DNA of 30,605 bases from IMG/VR virus record IMGVR_UViG_3300021061_000045, positions 1 through 30,605 of that record; one strand, given 5' to 3'. Made by a program: the position numbers and the translations under genes. Of this stretch, positions 17,648 to 30,605 are shown piece after piece. A model generated the notes under the pieces. The model saw only the letters and a program-made list of their open reading frames with translations. It was not told the origin of the DNA and made no database searches. Numbering within the stretch: position 1 is the stretch's first letter; each line of letters begins with the position of its first letter. Source of the DNA: a virus.

Positions 17648-18163
17648 CTAGTAGACGGGAATGAACACGTACTGGCCCGGGTCGTCGATGTTGTCGCGCA
17701 CGTAGATGCGCCGGAGTTTGCCCGCGCGAATGCGCTCCTTGAGGTCCTCGCCGCCGAATAGGCCGTTGTTGGTCAACTGCAACACCTTTTTCGGCGCGTC
17801 CGCCTTCTCGTCCATGGCGTACTCCTTCTCTTCTCCCTCGAAGGAGCCCCAGTAGACGATGTCGCCGACAAAGATACCCTGCGACCGCAACTCCTCACGA
17901 GCCGCCAGGCCAGCTGCGAGCAGAAGGCCGTGATTCTCGGGCCACACTTCCTCCTGGGCGATGTCCGGGATGTGAAGGCCGCTCGCCGTCATGGTCCGCT
18001 TGGCCTTTGGCCGGAAGCGGTAGACGGCGATCCGGTTGAACACCGGCTCATACGGCGGCTCGGGCGCGTCGTGCTCCTTCACCCGCTCTGCTAGGCGCTT
18101 TTCCGCCTCGCTCTCAAGCGCGCGCCACGCCGCCTCTTCCTTGGCGAGGTCACGGATGATCAC
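17648..18163 (-). CDS. GroES-like (Cpn10) co-chaperonin-type protein
   Basis: The product has 171 residues from GTG 18163. After a charged helix (about 1-45), residues about 47-115 match a GroES-type barrel: PVFNRIAVYRFRPKAKRT, ASGLHIPDIAQ (mobile-loop position), HGLLLAAGL, GIFVGDIVYWGSFEGEEKEY (the GroES VGDxVxF segment). A further 50 residues extend the C-terminus, longer than bacterial GroES (about 97). Phage GroES-like proteins such as T4 Gp31 help fold the capsid protein with host GroEL, and this gene lies next to the scaffold. The GTG overlaps the preceding stop as GTGA; an in-frame ATG at 18214 would overlap it by 54 bases and is less likely. Confidence 0.5.
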   Translation of the reverse strand: MIIRDLAKEEAAWRALESEAEKRLAERVKEHDAPEPPYEPVFNRIAVYRFRPKAKRTMTASGLHIPDIAQEEVWPENHGLLLAAGLAAREELRSQGIFVGDIVYWGSFEGEEKEYAMDEKADAPKKVLQLTNNGLFGGEDLKERIRAGKLRRIYVRDNIDDPGQYVFIPVY

Positions 18164-18453
18164 TTGCCGTTGCCCTTCAGCGACTCTTTGATCTCTCGGA
18201 TTCTGCTTTCCCATTCTTCTTTGCCCTCTCCCTTACGTGGAATCGTGTCGATGAGCCCCAGCATGTCGCGCCACGCGCGGCACGCCCCAGCCCGCCAGAT
18301 GCGCTGCTTTTCGTCCGGCGCGAACTCTGAGTAGCGCTGGTTGCCGCCGATCTCAGCCTCGATGAACCTCCGCATCGCCTGCGTGACATCGGAGCACCAC
18401 CAGGCGAGCAGCTTGTCCGCCGGCTGGTTCCAAAACTCGCCGCCGTCGCTCAT
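18160..18453 (-). CDS. Hypothetical helical protein
   Basis: A 97-residue protein rich in Trp, Arg and Glu (DKLLAWWCSDVTQAMRRFIE, AGACRAWRDMLGLID), predicted mostly helical, without membrane segment. The ATG at 18451-18453 overlaps the previous gene as ATGA and its stop overlaps the GTG of the GroES-like gene as GTGA, so it is translationally coupled on both sides. It belongs to the head/packaging operon between portal and scaffold. No family is recognised. Confidence 0.55.
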   Translation of the reverse strand: MSDGGEFWNQPADKLLAWWCSDVTQAMRRFIEAEIGGNQRYSEFAPDEKQRIWRAGACRAWRDMLGLIDTIPRKGEGKEEWESRIREIKESLKGNGK

Positions 18454-20792: not shown

Positions 20793-22475
20793 CTACCAGG
20801 GCATTCCGGGAAACCCGGATGCAGTCTTGGGTCGGCCGAGCTCTCTCCGCGCTCGGATCTCATCGAGAATTCTTTGATTGGCGTCCTCGGTGTCCGCGTA
20901 CGGCACCAGCATGCGATAGAGCGCGCCGTATCCGGCCGCGTCCATGTCGTGGTCGTCGCCCGTGGTGTCCCACAGGTCCGGGTTATCGGGGTCCGCCAGC
21001 AGACCTGGGATGCTCGTGATGGGGCCCGTCTCGTCCCAGTCGCCGCCCTTGAGCTTGTAGCGGGTCTTGCACGTCGAAAACCAGCGGATGCCCGGGATGA
21101 CCATCTCCCCAGCCGCGTTGGGAGTGCGGCGCCGCAGCCGGTTCCGTATCTGCTCGGCCGCGGACTCACGGCTGCGGTCCGCCTTGAAAAAGCCGGTGCC
21201 GAGGTTCTGTAGAATCTCGCCTCGCGACGGCCCCGTCTCCCCCTGTCGCGACCAAAGCGACGAGTCCATCGGGCCGTAGACGGTGGAGCAGTCGCGCAGC
21301 TCGTCCCACTCGGGCGGCACGATCAAGATCGGCTTGCCGTCGACCACCGCCGTACAGGGGCGCTTTTCGATCTCCCTGATGCGGTAGCCGAGCTCCTCGG
21401 CCGTGTGCCCCGTGACGGTCAGCGACCGGTAGCAAGTCATGTTGCCTTCGGGGTCCACCGCCCACCACTGCACGCTGGACTTGCTCGAGAACCCGTAGTC
21501 GCCGCTCTTGAACCGGAACCAGCCGTTGGGGATCGTGAACGGCTTGCAGATGTGGATCGTGGGATCCCAGTCGTCGCTGACCCACGTCCCCTCTTGCACG
21601 TCCCAGTCGTTGTCCAGGAGCGCGCGCCTGACCTCCGACCGCTTGGTCAGCAGGTTGCCTTCGTAGTTCCCGTCGCGCATGAGGGACGGGTTGTCGTAGA
21701 GGTTCCCCGGCAGGTAGACCTGGGTGAACTCTTTCCACTTGCCGCTGCGGAGCTTGACCCGCATCTGGACCGTCTCGCGCGGGTCCGCCACCTTCACGAA
21801 ACGGCGTTTCAGGTACTGCTTGGTCGCGCCGCCGACGGGGTTTGTCAGCAGCACGGTCTGGAGCTGCCGTGACAGCACCGGGTCTGGGCACCGGACGCGG
21901 GTGTCGAGCTCCTCGATCATCTTCTCGGTGAACTGGACCGCCTCGTCGATGACCAGAAGCGTCCACTCCGGGCCGTAGAACTTCAGGTAGTCGTCGTCGT
22001 GCTCGATGCCGGCGAACTGGACGCGGTAGCCGCACGTGAACGTGCATAGCTTCTTTTGCTCGTTCCACTCGGCCGCCGGGTCAATGCGCCGGTAGTAGCG
22101 CTTGAAATCCTCGACCACCTGCAGGAGCTCGTGGCCGAGGCGGCGGAAGAAGATCGCCCAGCCCTTGCTGTGTTCGATCTCCCCCTTGGCGTGCCGGTCC
22201 ATCTCCCCGAACAACTGCCGGAAGTACAGCCGCGAACCGACCGTCGTCTTTCCGGGACCAGCGCCACCGCCCGCCAGGATGTACCGCTCGGTGCGGCTCA
22301 TCAGGTCTTCCTGAAAACCCAGGAACGGCGCGAACAGAACGTCCTTCGGCAGGCACGACTGACAAACCAGCCCATCGCCGTACCGATGCACGGCCGGATC
22401 TCGGTCGCACCGGCCGCAGTAGCCGTACGGCGCCCCGTCGCGCTCGAGATAGCTGCGAACGGCCGGCGCCGTCAC
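20793..22475 (-). CDS. terL: Terminase large subunit with N-terminal zinc knuckle
   Basis: A 560-residue packaging ATPase/nuclease. Residues 20-41 contain CxxC-x14-CxxC (C20, C23, C38, C41), an uncommon added zinc site. The ATPase follows: Walker A GGGAGPGKTT (69-78, K76), Walker B LLVIDEA (173-179, catalytic E178), coupling motif LLTNP (209-213). The nuclease has D325 in SGDYGF, D403 in YGPMDSS, and a C-terminal acidic cluster GDDHDMDAAGYGALYRML. It cuts concatemeric DNA and drives it into the prohead through the portal. The start is GTG 22475, overlapping the previous stop as GTGA. The next gene downstream is the portal. Confidence 0.85.
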   Translation of the reverse strand: MTAPAVRSYLERDGAPYGYCGRCDRDPAVHRYGDGLVCQSCLPKDVLFAPFLGFQEDLMSRTERYILAGGGAGPGKTTVGSRLYFRQLFGEMDRHAKGEIEHSKGWAIFFRRLGHELLQVVEDFKRYYRRIDPAAEWNEQKKLCTFTCGYRVQFAGIEHDDDYLKFYGPEWTLLVIDEAVQFTEKMIEELDTRVRCPDPVLSRQLQTVLLTNPVGGATKQYLKRRFVKVADPRETVQMRVKLRSGKWKEFTQVYLPGNLYDNPSLMRDGNYEGNLLTKRSEVRRALLDNDWDVQEGTWVSDDWDPTIHICKPFTIPNGWFRFKSGDYGFSSKSSVQWWAVDPEGNMTCYRSLTVTGHTAEELGYRIREIEKRPCTAVVDGKPILIVPPEWDELRDCSTVYGPMDSSLWSRQGETGPSRGEILQNLGTGFFKADRSRESAAEQIRNRLRRRTPNAAGEMVIPGIRWFSTCKTRYKLKGGDWDETGPITSIPGLLADPDNPDLWDTTGDDHDMDAAGYGALYRMLVPYADTEDANQRILDEIRARRELGRPKTASGFPGMPW

Positions 22476-23990: not shown

Positions 23991-24335
23991 CTATCTCCTC
24001 TCTTCCCCTCCATCCCGCCCAATCGCCTCAGCGAAATTCGTCACTGCCGCTGCCGTCGCGTTCTCGCTCCTCAAGAACGCCGTCAAATCGCGCTGCTGTA
24101 TGCGCCAGTGTGGATGCCCTTTGCCGCCGTCTGGCTTGGCGTGTATCGCCGTCGCTTTGAGCCAGCCTCGATGAATCCAGCGGCGTACCGTCTCGACATG
24201 CACACCCAGCGCTGTTGCCACCTCCGAGACGCAGAACCATCGCGTTGGGCCGCGTCCTCCTCGCTGGGCCTTGTAGTAACGTGGCTCACCGTTCCACGTG
24301 TACCTATTGGGGTTGGCGTCTATAGTTGCAGCCAC
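23991..24335 (-). CDS. Helix-turn-helix regulator, excisionase/MerR type
   Basis: A 114-residue protein with a winged-helix/MerR-like domain at about 33-90: VSEVATALGVHVETVRRWIH then RGWLKA (HTH and first wing), and a wing ending in HWRIQQRDLTAFLRS, the usual HTH_17/excisionase form. The N-terminal 30 residues (TWNGEPRYYKAQRGG) are basic. The start is GTG 24335 after GGGGAC. It is divergent from the plus-strand genes at 24465, so it may act on the shared 129-base intergenic control region and on the late leader. No integrase is seen, so an excisionase role is not supported by context; transcription control is more likely. Confidence 0.65.
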   Translation of the reverse strand: MAATIDANPNRYTWNGEPRYYKAQRGGRGPTRWFCVSEVATALGVHVETVRRWIHRGWLKATAIHAKPDGGKGHPHWRIQQRDLTAFLRSENATAAAVTNFAEAIGRDGGEERR

Positions 24336-24935: not shown

Positions 24936-25151
24936 CTACCGCGTCCGCCCCTTGCGCTTGGAGGGCTGCTGCTGGGGCCGTGGCAGCGGGTCATCCACGC
25001 TCACCGCCAGCATTGCCGGCGCGTCCTTGGGCAGCCGCACGTTCCAGGGCCACTCGTTCAGCTTGGCGCGTATCCGCTTCATCTCGCTCTCTGGCATGTA
25101 GGGCGCCAGCGATACCGCCTCCCGCCCCTTCGCCTTGCCCTTGCGCTTCAC
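24936..25151 (-). CDS. Small basic protein, last gene of the early chain
   Basis: A 71-residue, Lys/Arg-rich protein with basic ends (MKRKGKAKGREAVSLAPYMP and QPSKRKGRTR) and a middle with LNEWPWNVRLPKDAPAML. GTG at 25149-25151 overlaps the upstream stop as GTGA. It is the last gene of the minus-strand early chain, meeting the plus-strand genes head-on. Nucleic-acid binding is plausible from charge alone. No family is recognised. Confidence 0.55.
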   Translation of the reverse strand: MKRKGKAKGREAVSLAPYMPESEMKRIRAKLNEWPWNVRLPKDAPAMLAVSVDDPLPRPQQQPSKRKGRTR

Positions 25152-25348
25152 GGTACGAGCTCCCAGTCGGTGGCGAGGATGTCATCGGCCATGGCGCCCC
25201 AAAATCCCACAGGCACCGTGTCGCCGGGTCGCAGCGACTCGATCAGTTGCCCACGCACGACGCGCACTGCCTTGTGTTCGGCCCATTCGCGCCGCCTGAA
25301 GTATTGCCCCGTCGTGCGCGCCTCCCTCACCACCTCCACCAGCGTCAC
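25148..25348 (-). CDS. Tad2/DUF2829-like protein, candidate anti-Thoeris factor
   Basis: A 66-residue protein whose layout fits the DUF2829 (Tad2) family. It has an N-terminal helix (MTLVEVVREARTTGQYFRRR) followed by R-x-EW at the R-x-x-W position, a variable beta middle (AVRVVRGQLIESLRPGDTVP), then VGFWGAMADDILATDWELVP, matching the family's W...D(L/I)LAxDW(E/V)xV end. Tad2 proteins from other phages bind the cyclic-nucleotide signals made by Thoeris defence. GTG 25348 overlaps the previous stop as GTGA and follows AAGGACCAGCC; a longer form from 25411 overlaps the neighbour. The molecular function is an inference from family similarity. Confidence 0.6.
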   Translation of the reverse strand: MTLVEVVREARTTGQYFRRREWAEHKAVRVVRGQLIESLRPGDTVPVGFWGAMADDILATDWELVP

Positions 25349-25596
25349 GGCTGGTCCTTGGCTGGCAGTTGGTCGGCCGTTACGTGGCCCGTGCCGCCGC
25401 ACGTCGGACACGTCTGCGCCCCGCCCAGGTAGTCGTAATCTGACTCCAGCCGCACGACGGAAATGGACCCGCGGCCGGTAGCGCCCTCGATGTAGGCGCC
25501 GCCGTTGTGAAGGTCGAGACGCATTAGCCTGAACTTGCTCCCGTCAGACTTGCGCCGGAACCACTCACCCACGTTTTGGTATCCGACTGACATCAC
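25345..25596 (-). CDS. Small protein with CxxCGGTGH zinc motif
   Basis: An 83-residue protein with beta character in the first 60 residues (GEWFRRKSDGSKFRLMRLDL) and a C-terminal CPTCGGTGHV sequence, a single DnaJ-type CxxCxGxG zinc knuckle half-site. GTG 25596 (GTGATG) overlaps the previous stop as GTGA; the ATG at 25593 is equally plausible and has GAAGGGGGGTG directly before it. It is in the coupled early chain next to the Tad2-like gene. Function unknown. Confidence 0.55.
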   Translation of the reverse strand: MMSVGYQNVGEWFRRKSDGSKFRLMRLDLHNGGAYIEGATGRGSISVVRLESDYDYLGGAQTCPTCGGTGHVTADQLPAKDQP

Positions 25597-25886
25597 CCCC
25601 CCTTCGCCCGCCGCTTTCGCATGAACGCCTCGGTCATGACGATGCAGTTAGGGGCGTTCCACGGCTTGAACGCGTCCGCCTGCGCCTGCGTGGCGCACTG
25701 AATCCTGCAGTTCATGAACCGCACGACCACGCCGAGCTTCTTGGGCGGGAACAGGATTCGACAGCCACGGGCCACGATGACGGCGCAGTCATAGAACGTC
25801 CCGTAGCTTAGTTTGCGCATGTCCACCGTACCTGTCAGCCGAACAACGGCCCGGGTGATGTCGTCGTGATGTCGCAGTTCGATCAC
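25593..25886 (-). CDS. Small beta-rich protein, hypothetical
   Basis: A 97-residue protein (MIELRHHDDITRAVVRLTGT, SYGTFYDCAVIVARGCRILF, VVVRFMNCRIQCATQ) with predicted beta-strands, four Cys and a basic tail (AFMRKRRAKGG). GTG 25886 overlaps the previous stop as GTGA with AAGGGGGAG upstream; a longer in-frame start at 25976 would overlap the neighbour by 94 bases. The repeated beta-turn look is reminiscent of a short solenoid, but this is weak. Family not recognised. Confidence 0.5.
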   Translation of the reverse strand: MIELRHHDDITRAVVRLTGTVDMRKLSYGTFYDCAVIVARGCRILFPPKKLGVVVRFMNCRIQCATQAQADAFKPWNAPNCIVMTEAFMRKRRAKGG

Positions 25887-26128
25887 GGCTCCCCCTTCGC
25901 CATCTCGCGGATGCGCTCGCCTAGTACAGCGCATGCGTAGTCCCATGTACCGTACTTGCCCGCCGCCTCCTCGCACACCTTCGCCGCCGCCTCCAGGACC
26001 AGCGGCGCGATGACGTCCCAGGCTGCGCGTCCCTGCGCACGGGGCGCGACGTGGCCGTCGGGCGTTGAGGCGCGAGCGATGGCGACTGCGATGGCCTCCA
26101 GCTGTTCCCGCGTCGGCTCTAGCTTCAC
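25883..26128 (-). CDS. Small helical protein, common phage hypothetical
   Basis: An 81-residue protein (LEPTREQLEAIAVAIARAST, then DVIAPLVLEAAAKVCEEAAG). The pattern LEAAAxVCEExA is seen in many small phage and metagenome proteins of unknown role, often in early regions. It is helical with no membrane segment. GTG 26128 overlaps the previous stop as GTGA, and its own stop overlaps the next start as GTGA. No function can be given. Confidence 0.55.
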   Translation of the reverse strand: MKLEPTREQLEAIAVAIARASTPDGHVAPRAQGRAAWDVIAPLVLEAAAKVCEEAAGKYGTWDYACAVLGERIREMAKGEP

Positions 26129-26403
26129 GTCCTCGGCTCCACGATGAAGAACTCCTCGGCGGGGATGGTCCGCACGTCGCCGTCGTTGGTCATCTCGTAA
26201 TGCCCCGGCATGATGAACACGGTGCAGCCGGGGCCCGCCACGTCGAGGGCCGCTTTCAGCGTCATGAACTCGCCTCCCTCACCGACGCTGATCCATGCGT
26301 TCTGCCGCAAGATGAGCGGCTGTGCAGGTGCGGTCTTGAGCACCGACGTGCCCGCCAGCACCGCTGCCATGCCGCTCAGGAACGCTCTGCGTGACGTGCT
26401 CAT
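26125..26403 (-). CDS. Tat-signal protein with beta-helix cap motif
   Basis: A 92-residue protein. The N-terminus MSTSRRAFLSGMAAVLAG holds a twin-arginine motif (S-RR-x-FL) and a hydrophobic stretch, a Tat export signal, with an AxA-type site near APAQP. The mature part has GGEFMTLKAALDVAGPGCTV and FIMPGHYEMTND, a pattern close to the entry of pectate-lyase/pectinesterase beta-helices and to the capsid-side beta-helix proteins of this phage. Only about 60 residues follow the signal, so a full helix is not formed. ATG at 26403 gives ATGA overlap; a longer start at 26481 would overlap the neighbour. Role unknown; perhaps a host-derived fragment. Confidence 0.55.
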   Translation of the reverse strand: MSTSRRAFLSGMAAVLAGTSVLKTAPAQPLILRQNAWISVGEGGEFMTLKAALDVAGPGCTVFIMPGHYEMTNDGDVRTIPAEEFFIVEPRT

Positions 26404-26738
26404 CGCTTTACCCGTGCCAGTAGTTCGCGGGCCGCTTCCGTTACACAGTCGTGCGGCCCTGTACGCGTGCCCTTCTGGCATTCGACGCAGTTACGCCCCT
26501 CGGCGATGCGAGACACGAGCGCGACCAGTTCGTCATACGTCGGCTTGGGCGCCACGAAGACTGGGCCGCCGTTCGCTGCTTCCATGAGCCTGGTAAGGTG
26601 CGCGCCGATATCCACGCAGTCCTGCATCGCCCGGCTGTCGTCGTCCTCGCCCGGTTCGCGCTCGCGAGGAGACACGGACAGCAGTGCTTCGCCGTTCCCG
26701 AGTCCACTCAGCCTAACCGTTGCCCGCTTCGTGCTCAT
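26400..26738 (-). CDS. Hypothetical early protein
   Basis: A 112-residue protein with a beta start (MSTKRATVRLSGLGNGEALL), an acidic spacer (REREPGEDDDS), and a helical middle (VDIGAHLTRLMEAANGG, YDELVALVSRIAEGRN). A CVECQKGTRTGPHDC cluster (CxxC-x9-C with His) at about 85-99 may bind a metal. ATGA overlaps join it to both neighbours. It may be a single-copy phage regulator or modifier. The family is not recognised. Confidence 0.5.
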   Translation of the reverse strand: MSTKRATVRLSGLGNGEALLSVSPREREPGEDDDSRAMQDCVDIGAHLTRLMEAANGGPVFVAPKPTYDELVALVSRIAEGRNCVECQKGTRTGPHDCVTEAARELLARVKR

Positions 26739-27511
26739 CGCCTACGGACCCCATGCTCCACGTTCACCATCCCGCACGCAAGCCCGCCCAGGCCGGTACG
26801 CATCGGGGCGGGTGGGCCGGCTCCAAGCTCGTGCAGGGCGACCGAGCGGCGCAGATACGGCGGCAGTACGGCACCGCGCCGGCCGAACTGCGACACCTGG
26901 TCCAGCCAGATGGCCTCCTCCCTGAACACCGGACACACCCCCTCAGTCCTGCACGGCTCCTTCGGCGTACACCCAGGAGCGCAGCGGGGCGTGGCGGGCG
27001 CGGGCTTGCCGGCCGCAGCCCTGGCCTTGTCGTAATCCTGCATGGCCTTTTGCAGCGCCTCGGCCTTCCCCTCATCAGGGCCGGGGACGGGGCCGCCCAC
27101 GCAATCCGCAACAGGCAGGCCGCCAATGGCGTAGCGAACGAAGTGCATCGAGTCGCTCTTCCAGGCGTCAAGCTCGACCTCGCCGCCACCTGTCAGAACG
27201 CCCGTGGCGCGGCCTACGTAGTGAATGCCGTTGTGGTTGAACTCGTACCACTCGCCCTTCTCGAACGTCACCGACCCCTTCACCTCCCCCGCTGCGGACT
27301 GGTCGGGGAGGCGCTCCCAGGCCCCCGGCCCCACGCTCCAGCCTTCGCCCATGTCCACGCCCGTCGTCTCGTTGAACATGCGGCACACGTGGAAGCCGGC
27401 CGCAACCGACGTCGCTGTCACACGGCACACGTCGCCATGGTGCAGATCTTTGTCGGTCGGCCAGTCCCACCGCCACCGGCTCCCCACCGGCACCGCATCT
27501 TGATCGCTCAT
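26735..27511 (-). CDS. Hypothetical early protein with Cys cluster
   Basis: A 258-residue protein, the largest in the small-gene chain. The N-terminal 120 residues look beta-rich (SRWRWDWPTDKDLHHGDVCR, KGEWYEFNHNGIHYVGRATG), followed by a helix (about 160-185, EALQKAMQDYDKARAAAGK) and a CAPGCTPKEPCRTEGVC cluster (about 190-206) that may bind zinc. ATG 27511 gives an ATGA overlap; an earlier in-frame start at 27622 is not supported. The role is unknown. Confidence 0.55.
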   Translation of the reverse strand: MSDQDAVPVGSRWRWDWPTDKDLHHGDVCRVTATSVAAGFHVCRMFNETTGVDMGEGWSVGPGAWERLPDQSAAGEVKGSVTFEKGEWYEFNHNGIHYVGRATGVLTGGGEVELDAWKSDSMHFVRYAIGGLPVADCVGGPVPGPDEGKAEALQKAMQDYDKARAAAGKPAPATPRCAPGCTPKEPCRTEGVCPVFREEAIWLDQVSQFGRRGAVLPPYLRRSVALHELGAGPPAPMRTGLGGLACGMVNVEHGVRRR

Positions 27512-29497: not shown

Positions 29498-29863
29498 TCA
29501 AAAAGGGACGTCACCGTCATCGGGAGACGGGGCGGGGTTGGGGTTGGCGACGGGTGGGCGCTGAGCGGCTCCGATCGTCTTGAACTTTTCGCCGATGATG
29601 TCCGTGTACCAGCGGCCGTTGTACTCACGGCCTCGCGCACGGCCCAGGATGGACACGCACTGTCCCTCCTTGAGCTTCTCGGCTTCCTCGACGGTTCGGC
29701 CGAACACCACGACCTGGGTCTTGTCCTTTTCCGTGACGTTCTTCATCCACGACGGCGGATCGGTCTCCACCGTCAGCCGCGCCACCTTCTTGCCCTTGGG
29801 CGTCTGCTCGACGGACAGGTTGGTCAGCGTCCCGGTCAAACGAACCTCGTTGATGCTGCTCAT
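29498..29863 (-). CDS. ssb: Single-stranded DNA-binding protein
   Basis: A 121-residue SSB. The OB-fold is visible at residues 1-100: MSSINEVRLTGTLTNLSVEQ, then KKVARLTVETDP, then QVVVFGRTVEEAEKLKEGQC and VSILGRARGREYNGRWYTDI. The C-terminal acidic tip DDGDVPF (115-121) resembles the bacterial SSB tail that recruits host replication and repair factors. It is shorter than E. coli SSB (178 residues) because the linker is short and Pro-rich. ATG 29863 follows AGAAGGGATGTTCTAG. It follows the helicase gene and belongs to the replication operon. Confidence 0.85.
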   Translation of the reverse strand: MSSINEVRLTGTLTNLSVEQTPKGKKVARLTVETDPPSWMKNVTEKDKTQVVVFGRTVEEAEKLKEGQCVSILGRARGREYNGRWYTDIIGEKFKTIGAAQRPPVANPNPAPSPDDGDVPF

Positions 29864-30605
29864 CTAGAACATCCCTTCTTCGCTTCGCGGTTGCGCCCAG
29901 TAGGGCAATTTCTCCTCTGCCAACGGTCTGAACTCGTTGCCTTCGATCTGTCCAAGCACGAACTCGTTTTCGTACGTGCCCGTGCGCGCGTCGTAGTCGA
30001 CCAAGCCCACGTACCGGCACCGGCTTCCATCGACGCGGCACTTGACCGGCGAGATGTACGTCGGGAGCTTTCCCGGCTCGCACGCGGGCTGGTCGCGAGC
30101 TGGCGCAAGCATCAGCGCCTTCGTGCTGATCTTGGGGATGTCGCTGGTGCCGTGGAAATCCTCGATGTCAGGCACCAACGACTGCGAACGCGCGTCGCCC
30201 TTGCGGATGTGCGAAAGCAGGATGACCGGCTTGCCCATCGACAGCGCAGCATCGCGAACCTGCTTGACGATGAGCTTGTAGCCGCGGTTCTCGTTCGGGT
30301 CCTGCGTGTCGATGTAGAGCAGGTGGTCGACGATGATCAGGTCCGTTTGGTCCTGCACCGATAGCGCCAGCCGATGGAACGTCTCGCCGTAGAAGTCGCC
30401 CGTCCGGTAGAACGTGTGCAGTGTCTTGAAACGCGCGTCGAACTCTTCCTGCACCCGCTGTTCGTAGCGCCGGGCGTCGATGTCCACGCGCGCCGCGTAC
30501 CAGTCCAGGTACTGCATGCGCCGGTAGAGCGGGTGCCCCTCCTCGCGCGCCATGTTGCTCAGCAGCGCGAACTTGATTCGCCGCTCGATCTCGTCTTGCT
30601 CTGCC
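29864..30605 (-). CDS. DnaB-type replicative helicase, C-terminal part (partial)
   Basis: The gene enters from the right edge; the visible 246 residues continue past an internal Met. Walker B is TDLIIVDHLLYIDTQ (D then H), followed by VILLSHIRKGDARSQSLVPD and EDFHGTSDIPKISTKALML, which matches DnaB/gp4-type RecA-like helicase motifs. Walker A is outside the window. It unwinds phage DNA at the replication fork, working with the adjacent SSB. The C-terminus ends in basic/aromatic sequence (EEKLPYWAQPRSEEGMF). It is either a DnaB helicase or a helicase-primase fusion; the 5' end is needed to decide. Confidence 0.7.
   Translation of the reverse strand, partial: AEQDEIERRIKFALLSNMAREEGHPLYRRMQYLDWYAARVDIDARRYEQRVQEEFDARFKTLHTFYRTGDFYGETFHRLALSVQDQTDLIIVDHLLYIDTQDPNENRGYKLIVKQVRDAALSMGKPVILLSHIRKGDARSQSLVPDIEDFHGTSDIPKISTKALMLAPARDQPACEPGKLPTYISPVKCRVDGSRCRYVGLVDYDARTGTYENEFVLGQIEGNEFRPLAEEKLPYWAQPRSEEGMF

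Follow-up and report, generated by a model that had tools for sequence, protein, structure and literature searches.

A short phage gene predicted to encode a minimal and divergent Tad2-like protein

Tad2 proteins are phage proteins that soak up bacterial immune signals, and in their canonical form they are homotetramers with two ligand pockets; traits of the canonical group (SPO1 Tad2, ModTad2, HgmTad2 and SptTad2) include binding of gcADPR or His-ADPR and blocking of Thoeris. An original prediction placed a candidate Tad2-like anti-Thoeris protein among the small genes of IMG/VR virus record IMGVR_UViG_3300021061_000045, which raises the question of whether the frame concerned is a gene, whether its product belongs with Tad2, and what, if anything, that product would be expected to bind. 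Here we address these points for the whole stretch that was analysed (hereafter the window; 30,605 bases, 65% GC) and for the product of the gene (the window protein).

The 66-aa minus-strand reading frame is a genuine gene, because it combines a ribosome-binding site, start and stop overlaps with its neighbours, and GC contents by codon position (0.72/0.48/0.81) that follow the same pattern as the phage's large genes, unlike those of the antisense frame. Its start shares bases with the stop of the upstream gene in a GTGA overlap, and its own stop is overlapped by the GTG of the downstream gene (25151). Two competing calls were rejected: an antisense 306-aa frame on the plus strand, whose GC by codon position (0.70/0.72/0.66) lacks the large-gene pattern, and a longer 87-aa version starting from a GTG at 25411, which would overlap the upstream gene by ~66 bases and gives a weaker Pfam match. 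The product translates as MTLVEVVREARTTGQYFRRREWAEHKAVRVVRGQLIESLRPGDTVPVGFWGAMADDILATDWELVP. The interval originally proposed, 25148-25348, proved exact, stop codon included, although its strand had been left unstated and the gene in fact lies on the minus strand; the R-x-EW motif (R19-R-E21-W22) and the C-terminal DDILATDWELVP were likewise found where they had been placed in the 66 residues.

Table 1. Coordinates of the Tad2-like gene, its sequence signatures and the neighbouring genes in the window
Feature	Position	Strand	Remarks
DnaB-like ATPase gene	29864-30553		Upstream of Tad2-like gene
SSB-like gene	29498..29863	(-)	Upstream of Tad2-like gene, in the same strand block
Upstream overlapping gene	25345..25596	(-)	83 aa; CPTCGGTGH zinc-knuckle-like motif
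AAGGA ribosome-binding site	25355..25359	(-)	6 bases ahead of the GTG; from sequence
Tad2-like (PF11195) ORF	25148..25348	(-)	66 aa; GTG start at 25348; stop codon included
Codons 19-24, R-R-E-W-A-E	25277..25294	(-)	Invariant Arg19 and Trp22 kept; canonical GWNGK loop replaced by EWAEHK
Codons 50-62, W-GAMAD-D-ILAT-D-W	25163..25201	(-)	Aligns ungapped with W-L-A-S-Q-T-D-x-L-A-E-D-W
Downstream overlapping gene	24936..25151	(-)	71 aa, basic; no family match
Terminase large subunit	20793..22475	(-)	Downstream of Tad2-like gene, same strand

The main genes of the window all lie on the minus strand, and the Tad2-like gene is part of a chain of overlapping small genes, with replication genes (DnaB-like, SSB) on one side and the terminase on the other; small genes of no known function fill the space between SSB and the Tad2-like gene, and a helix-turn-helix gene precedes the terminase downstream. 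Most likely, the Tad2-like gene would be expressed with its neighbours from one polycistronic message. The neighbours had been suggested as further anti-defence factors, a suggestion for which we found no supporting evidence: PADLOC made no call on the Tad2-like gene or its close neighbours, and no defence or counter-defence gene was identified nearby.

Several other genes of the window deserve mention in their own right. The protein of 23991-24335 (-) matches HTH_17 (E = 6.4e-10) as well as the PADLOC 'mad1' model (1.7e-8), the latter most likely due only to the shared helix-turn-helix; it is a candidate either for an excisionase-type regulator or for the small subunit of the terminase. The protein of 25883-26128 (-) gave a sub-threshold match to an N-terminal dATP/dGTP diphosphohydrolase domain (PF18909, E = 4e-4), and that of 26125-26481 (-) contains STSRRAFLSGMAAVLAG, a stretch resembling a Tat (twin-arginine) signal that follows an internal ATG and is uncommon for a gene of a phage early region. 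In the head-gene region, between the portal and major capsid protein genes, 17648-18214 (-) encodes a GroES-like protein (Cpn10, PF00166, E = 1.6e-4, exceeding the cut-off), possibly a phage co-chaperonin.

Comparison at the sequence level places the window protein, with high confidence, in the Tad2-like (PF11195/DUF2829) superfamily. When searched against the whole Pfam library, residues 1-65 aligned with positions 1-73 of the 73-position PF11195 profile (E = 5.5e-5). The phrase 'closely matching' used in the original prediction overstates this match, as the score of 24.1 bits falls 0.9 bits short of the curated cut-off of 25 and identity to other family members is mostly 22-34%. Family profiles of our own, built without the query, scored the window protein at 21.6-22.9 bits, against at most 10.6 bits for ~20,000 shuffles; for one such profile (22.9 bits), the best of 20,000 shuffles reached 8.7 and 0/20,000 reached the score of the query. 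None of 10,797 unrelated frames in the examined loci came close to the window protein's profile score. The protein also has all five of R19, W50, D56, D61 and W62, residues that are invariant in ten diverse members (near-invariant in the case of D61).

Structure prediction was consistent with this placement. With 63 aligned family sequences, mostly canonical Tad2 members, AlphaFold2 returned a monomer model with pLDDT 89 and pTM 0.77 that has the predicted Tad2 alpha/beta fold. In a Foldseek search of the PDB, the best 14 matches were all Tad2 or HgmTad2/AcrIIA7 (TM 0.55-0.74, probability 0.47-0.98), with E-values that are weak (0.18 or worse), as expected for 66 residues; in BFVD, the top matches were proteins of 65-66 aa named Tad2-like or DUF2829 (probability 1.00). 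Without an alignment, AlphaFold2 produced a poor, all-helical model (pLDDT 56), and because the model fails without the family alignment, the predicted fold is to be read as consistency and not as independent proof. A PDB search by sequence alone returned nothing significant.

The window protein departs from canonical Tad2 in parts of the canonical signature. Two patterns, R-x-GWNGK-x-MF and W-x-x-S-x-x-D-x-x-A-x-DW, occur in every solved Tad2 sequence, and, judged by alignment, most of the residues common to proven Tad2 proteins have been lost here. The WNG motif is absent, and is carried by 69/69 of the canonical members we collected, a set gathered by the GWNG pattern and so canonical by design; the near-invariant serine (57/61 homologues) is replaced by Met at position 53, the alanine at position 6 (61/61 homologues) is Val, and in the alignment the middle segment corresponding to the beta2-beta5 insertion is missing. 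In the W-x-x-S-Q-x-D turn that leads into helix alpha3, the window protein reads W-G-A-M-A-D-D, keeping the Trp and the Asp. According to a review (PMC12043709), two protomers contribute to the gcADPR pocket with their loop beta1-beta2, loop beta3-beta4, strand beta4, loop beta4-alpha3 and helix alpha3, and in some Tad2 members cyclic dinucleotides occupy the beta2-beta5 insertion. GWNGK is the signature of loop beta1-beta2, which forms one wall of this pocket. Taking the pocket elements as named in that review, and not individual contact residues, counterparts of the gcADPR-pocket elements are present in the window protein, with the beta4 Trp and alpha3 Asp conserved and with loop beta1-beta2 and the pre-alpha3 turn different. 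Since the pocket loops differ, ligand binding in the manner of SPO1 Tad2 is improbable and SPO1-style gcADPR binding doubtful, and the missing insertion, together with the pocket comparison, makes HgmTad2-style cyclic dinucleotide binding unlikely. The original label 'Tad2-like anti-Thoeris' consequently divides: the superfamily part stands on the full-length profile, the scaffold residues and the predicted fold, but the functional part is not supported, and the loss of ligand-pocket residues is itself partial (GWNGK, Ser and insertion gone; beta4 Trp and alpha3 Asp kept).

We also compared the window protein with the separate branches of the superfamily. In a PHROG search, PHROG_643 was the sole significant match (E = 5.8e-5); there was no match to PHROG_1048, and PHROG_872 reached only E = 1.4, these last two being the PHROGs that SPO1 Tad2 and short proteins of WNGK type match best. 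A staphylococcal-branch profile (12 non-redundant sequences) scored the window protein at 21.1 bits against 9.3 for shuffles, in place of recognition as a canonical Tad2, for which a WNG-type profile (60 non-redundant sequences) gave 11.6 bits against 11.2 for the best of 5,000 shuffles. Profile-profile comparisons, which share their sequences with these HMM comparisons and are therefore not fully independent of them, gave 95.6% over residues 1-65 for the NGK-less staphylococcal branch vs. 69.7%, confined to the last 24 residues, for the WNG type. Collectively, these comparisons indicate that the window protein probably sits on the short, NGK-less PHROG_643 side of the superfamily, and not among the proven Tad2 proteins.

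This placement bears directly on the reading closest to the original one, namely that, in spite of its divergent loop, the window protein works as an anti-Thoeris Tad2 and sequesters gcADPR (or His-ADPR) in the way of SPO1 Tad2 and ModTad2. Speaking for it are the Tad2-like predicted fold, the scaffold residues kept, a published pocket that uses loops and helix alpha3 (PMC12043709), of which the alpha3 Asp and the Trp before it are retained, and the fact that sponge families vary in ligand and tolerate large sequence change; with the canonical-Tad2 profile at shuffle level, WNG and the GWNGK of all solved Tad2 missing, Ser53 changed to Met, and neither PHROG_1048 nor PHROG_872 matched significantly, we nevertheless consider it unlikely.

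The PHROG_643 branch consists of short, NGK-less proteins of staphylococcal and lactococcal temperate phages, and we found no member with a tested function. Its PHROG label, 'transcriptional regulator', and the position of its genes next to repressor/antirepressor genes in those phages lend some weight to a second reading, in which the window protein works within the phage itself, as a regulatory or protein-binding factor built on a Tad2-like scaffold. The label seems to have been taken over from annotated records, and we found no test behind it; neither Pfam nor the AlphaFold2 model revealed a helix-turn-helix or other DNA-binding domain, and no repressor gene was found adjoining the Tad2-like gene in the studied phage. 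A further point in favour comes from sister contig G001, at whose end lies a C-terminal fragment of a tyrosine integrase (L194:29-670), which suggests a temperate or once-temperate relative. On balance we hold a regulatory or protein-binding role to be improbable, to much the same degree as gcADPR sequestration. The weakest alternative, a host-protein binder resembling AcrIIA7, a type II anti-CRISPR that is reported to inhibit Cas9, can draw on the DUF2829 domain in AcrIIA7 (PMC6739104) and on AcrIIA7 structures among the fold matches, but is very unlikely given that AcrIIA7/HgmTad2 proteins are long, of WNGK type and solved with 1',2'-cADPR and cGG, that the window protein has 66 aa without GWNGK loop or insertion, and that AcrIIA7 is among the Acr activities with conflicting reports (PMC13131331).

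Close relatives of the gene were few. Two IMG/VR contigs represent the same phage, sharing 16.5 kb at 99.98% DNA identity and an identical Tad2-like protein, and the longer of the two overlaps, with contig L005, holds at 99.98% up to ~27.3 kb and becomes mosaic past window position 27,311. From 27311 to the end of the window, L005 matches in short blocks of 94-97%, which places a recombination boundary within the early region, immediately upstream of the gene chain. Searches for intermediate homologues returned a single marginal match in phage records (E = 0.9), only the two contigs of the same phage (99.98% DNA identity) among viral contigs, and none from the family-alignment scan or in bacterial genomes; nine contigs reached via distant terminase relatives and searched end to end contained no Tad2-like match, and the major capsid protein, sought in genome contigs as a pointer to the host, had no match. 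As the close relatives are all of the same phage species, selection on the pocket is not measurable from them.

Among characterized or annotated systems, the nearest counterpart is found in PHROG_643, such as APD19958.1 of Staphylococcus phage SpT99F3, which like the window protein has a short domain with R-x-EW and W...ADD...A.DWE and no NGK loop (31% identity in a two-sequence alignment). The two sides differ in that PHROG_643 proteins have 68-81 aa, in the PTN stretch after beta2 and the conserved Ser before helix alpha3 that are missing in the window protein, and in gene position, with the window gene in an early, terminase-proximal chain whereas the branch genes adjoin repressor/antirepressor; the host ranges of the phages are likely different. 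SPO1 Tad2 (gp34.65; PDB 8sme, 8smf, 8smg) shares the PF11195 domain, the predicted fold (TM 0.67-0.74) and the R, W, D, D and W positions, but the window protein is 23 residues shorter, without GWNGK loop or beta2-beta5 insertion and with Ser changed to Met. The best PDB fold match was the His-ADPR binder ModTad2 from Myroides (PDB 9eib, 8v3e), which has both the GWNGK loop and the insertion that the window protein lacks; HgmTad2/AcrIIA7 (PDB 8kbi-8kbm, 9kzr) has the superfamily fold in common with it, but comprises 104-158 aa with a long insertion and a conserved GWNGKGMF. The BFVD entries A0A8S5M8A0 and A0A1L2CVD1 (Tad2-like, 65-66 aa) agree in length and fold at an identity of only 22-25%. 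Separately, we observed six adjoining Tad2-like matches in Lactobacillus phage Semele (MG765279, 113309-116093), most of them under the curated cut-off; they appear to be paralogues of the family arranged in tandem.

The explanation that we favour as a whole, though with evenly balanced confidence, is that the window protein is a minimal, divergent Tad2-like protein of PHROG_643 type that forms a small oligomer and acts as a sponge for a nucleotide-derived ligand. Under this favoured explanation, the conserved helix/strand scaffold would probably serve to assemble the small oligomer, and a small nucleotide-derived host molecule would probably be bound, sponge-like, at the protomer interface. 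Among the several roles considered, binding of some small host molecule seems the most likely; a nucleotide signal is a plausible ligand, and the signal-sponge mechanism taken by itself is a tentative proposal, falling a little short of an even prospect. A more far-reaching version, to which we give a low probability, is that the window protein and PHROG_643 form a separate mini-Tad2 class in which the scaffold was kept and the pocket rebuilt to take another immune signal, possibly one that is not yet described.

The name 'Thoeris anti-defense 2-like' is given to short Tad2-like proteins on profile alone, and the window protein, with its scaffold kept and the loop signature of solved Tad2 lost, illustrates how annotation can run ahead of evidence. 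If the mini-Tad2 class were true, many short proteins carrying anti-Thoeris names may have other targets. Should signal binding by the short branch be borne out, the ligand would add a new point to phage counter-defence; should it not, the annotation would need changing.
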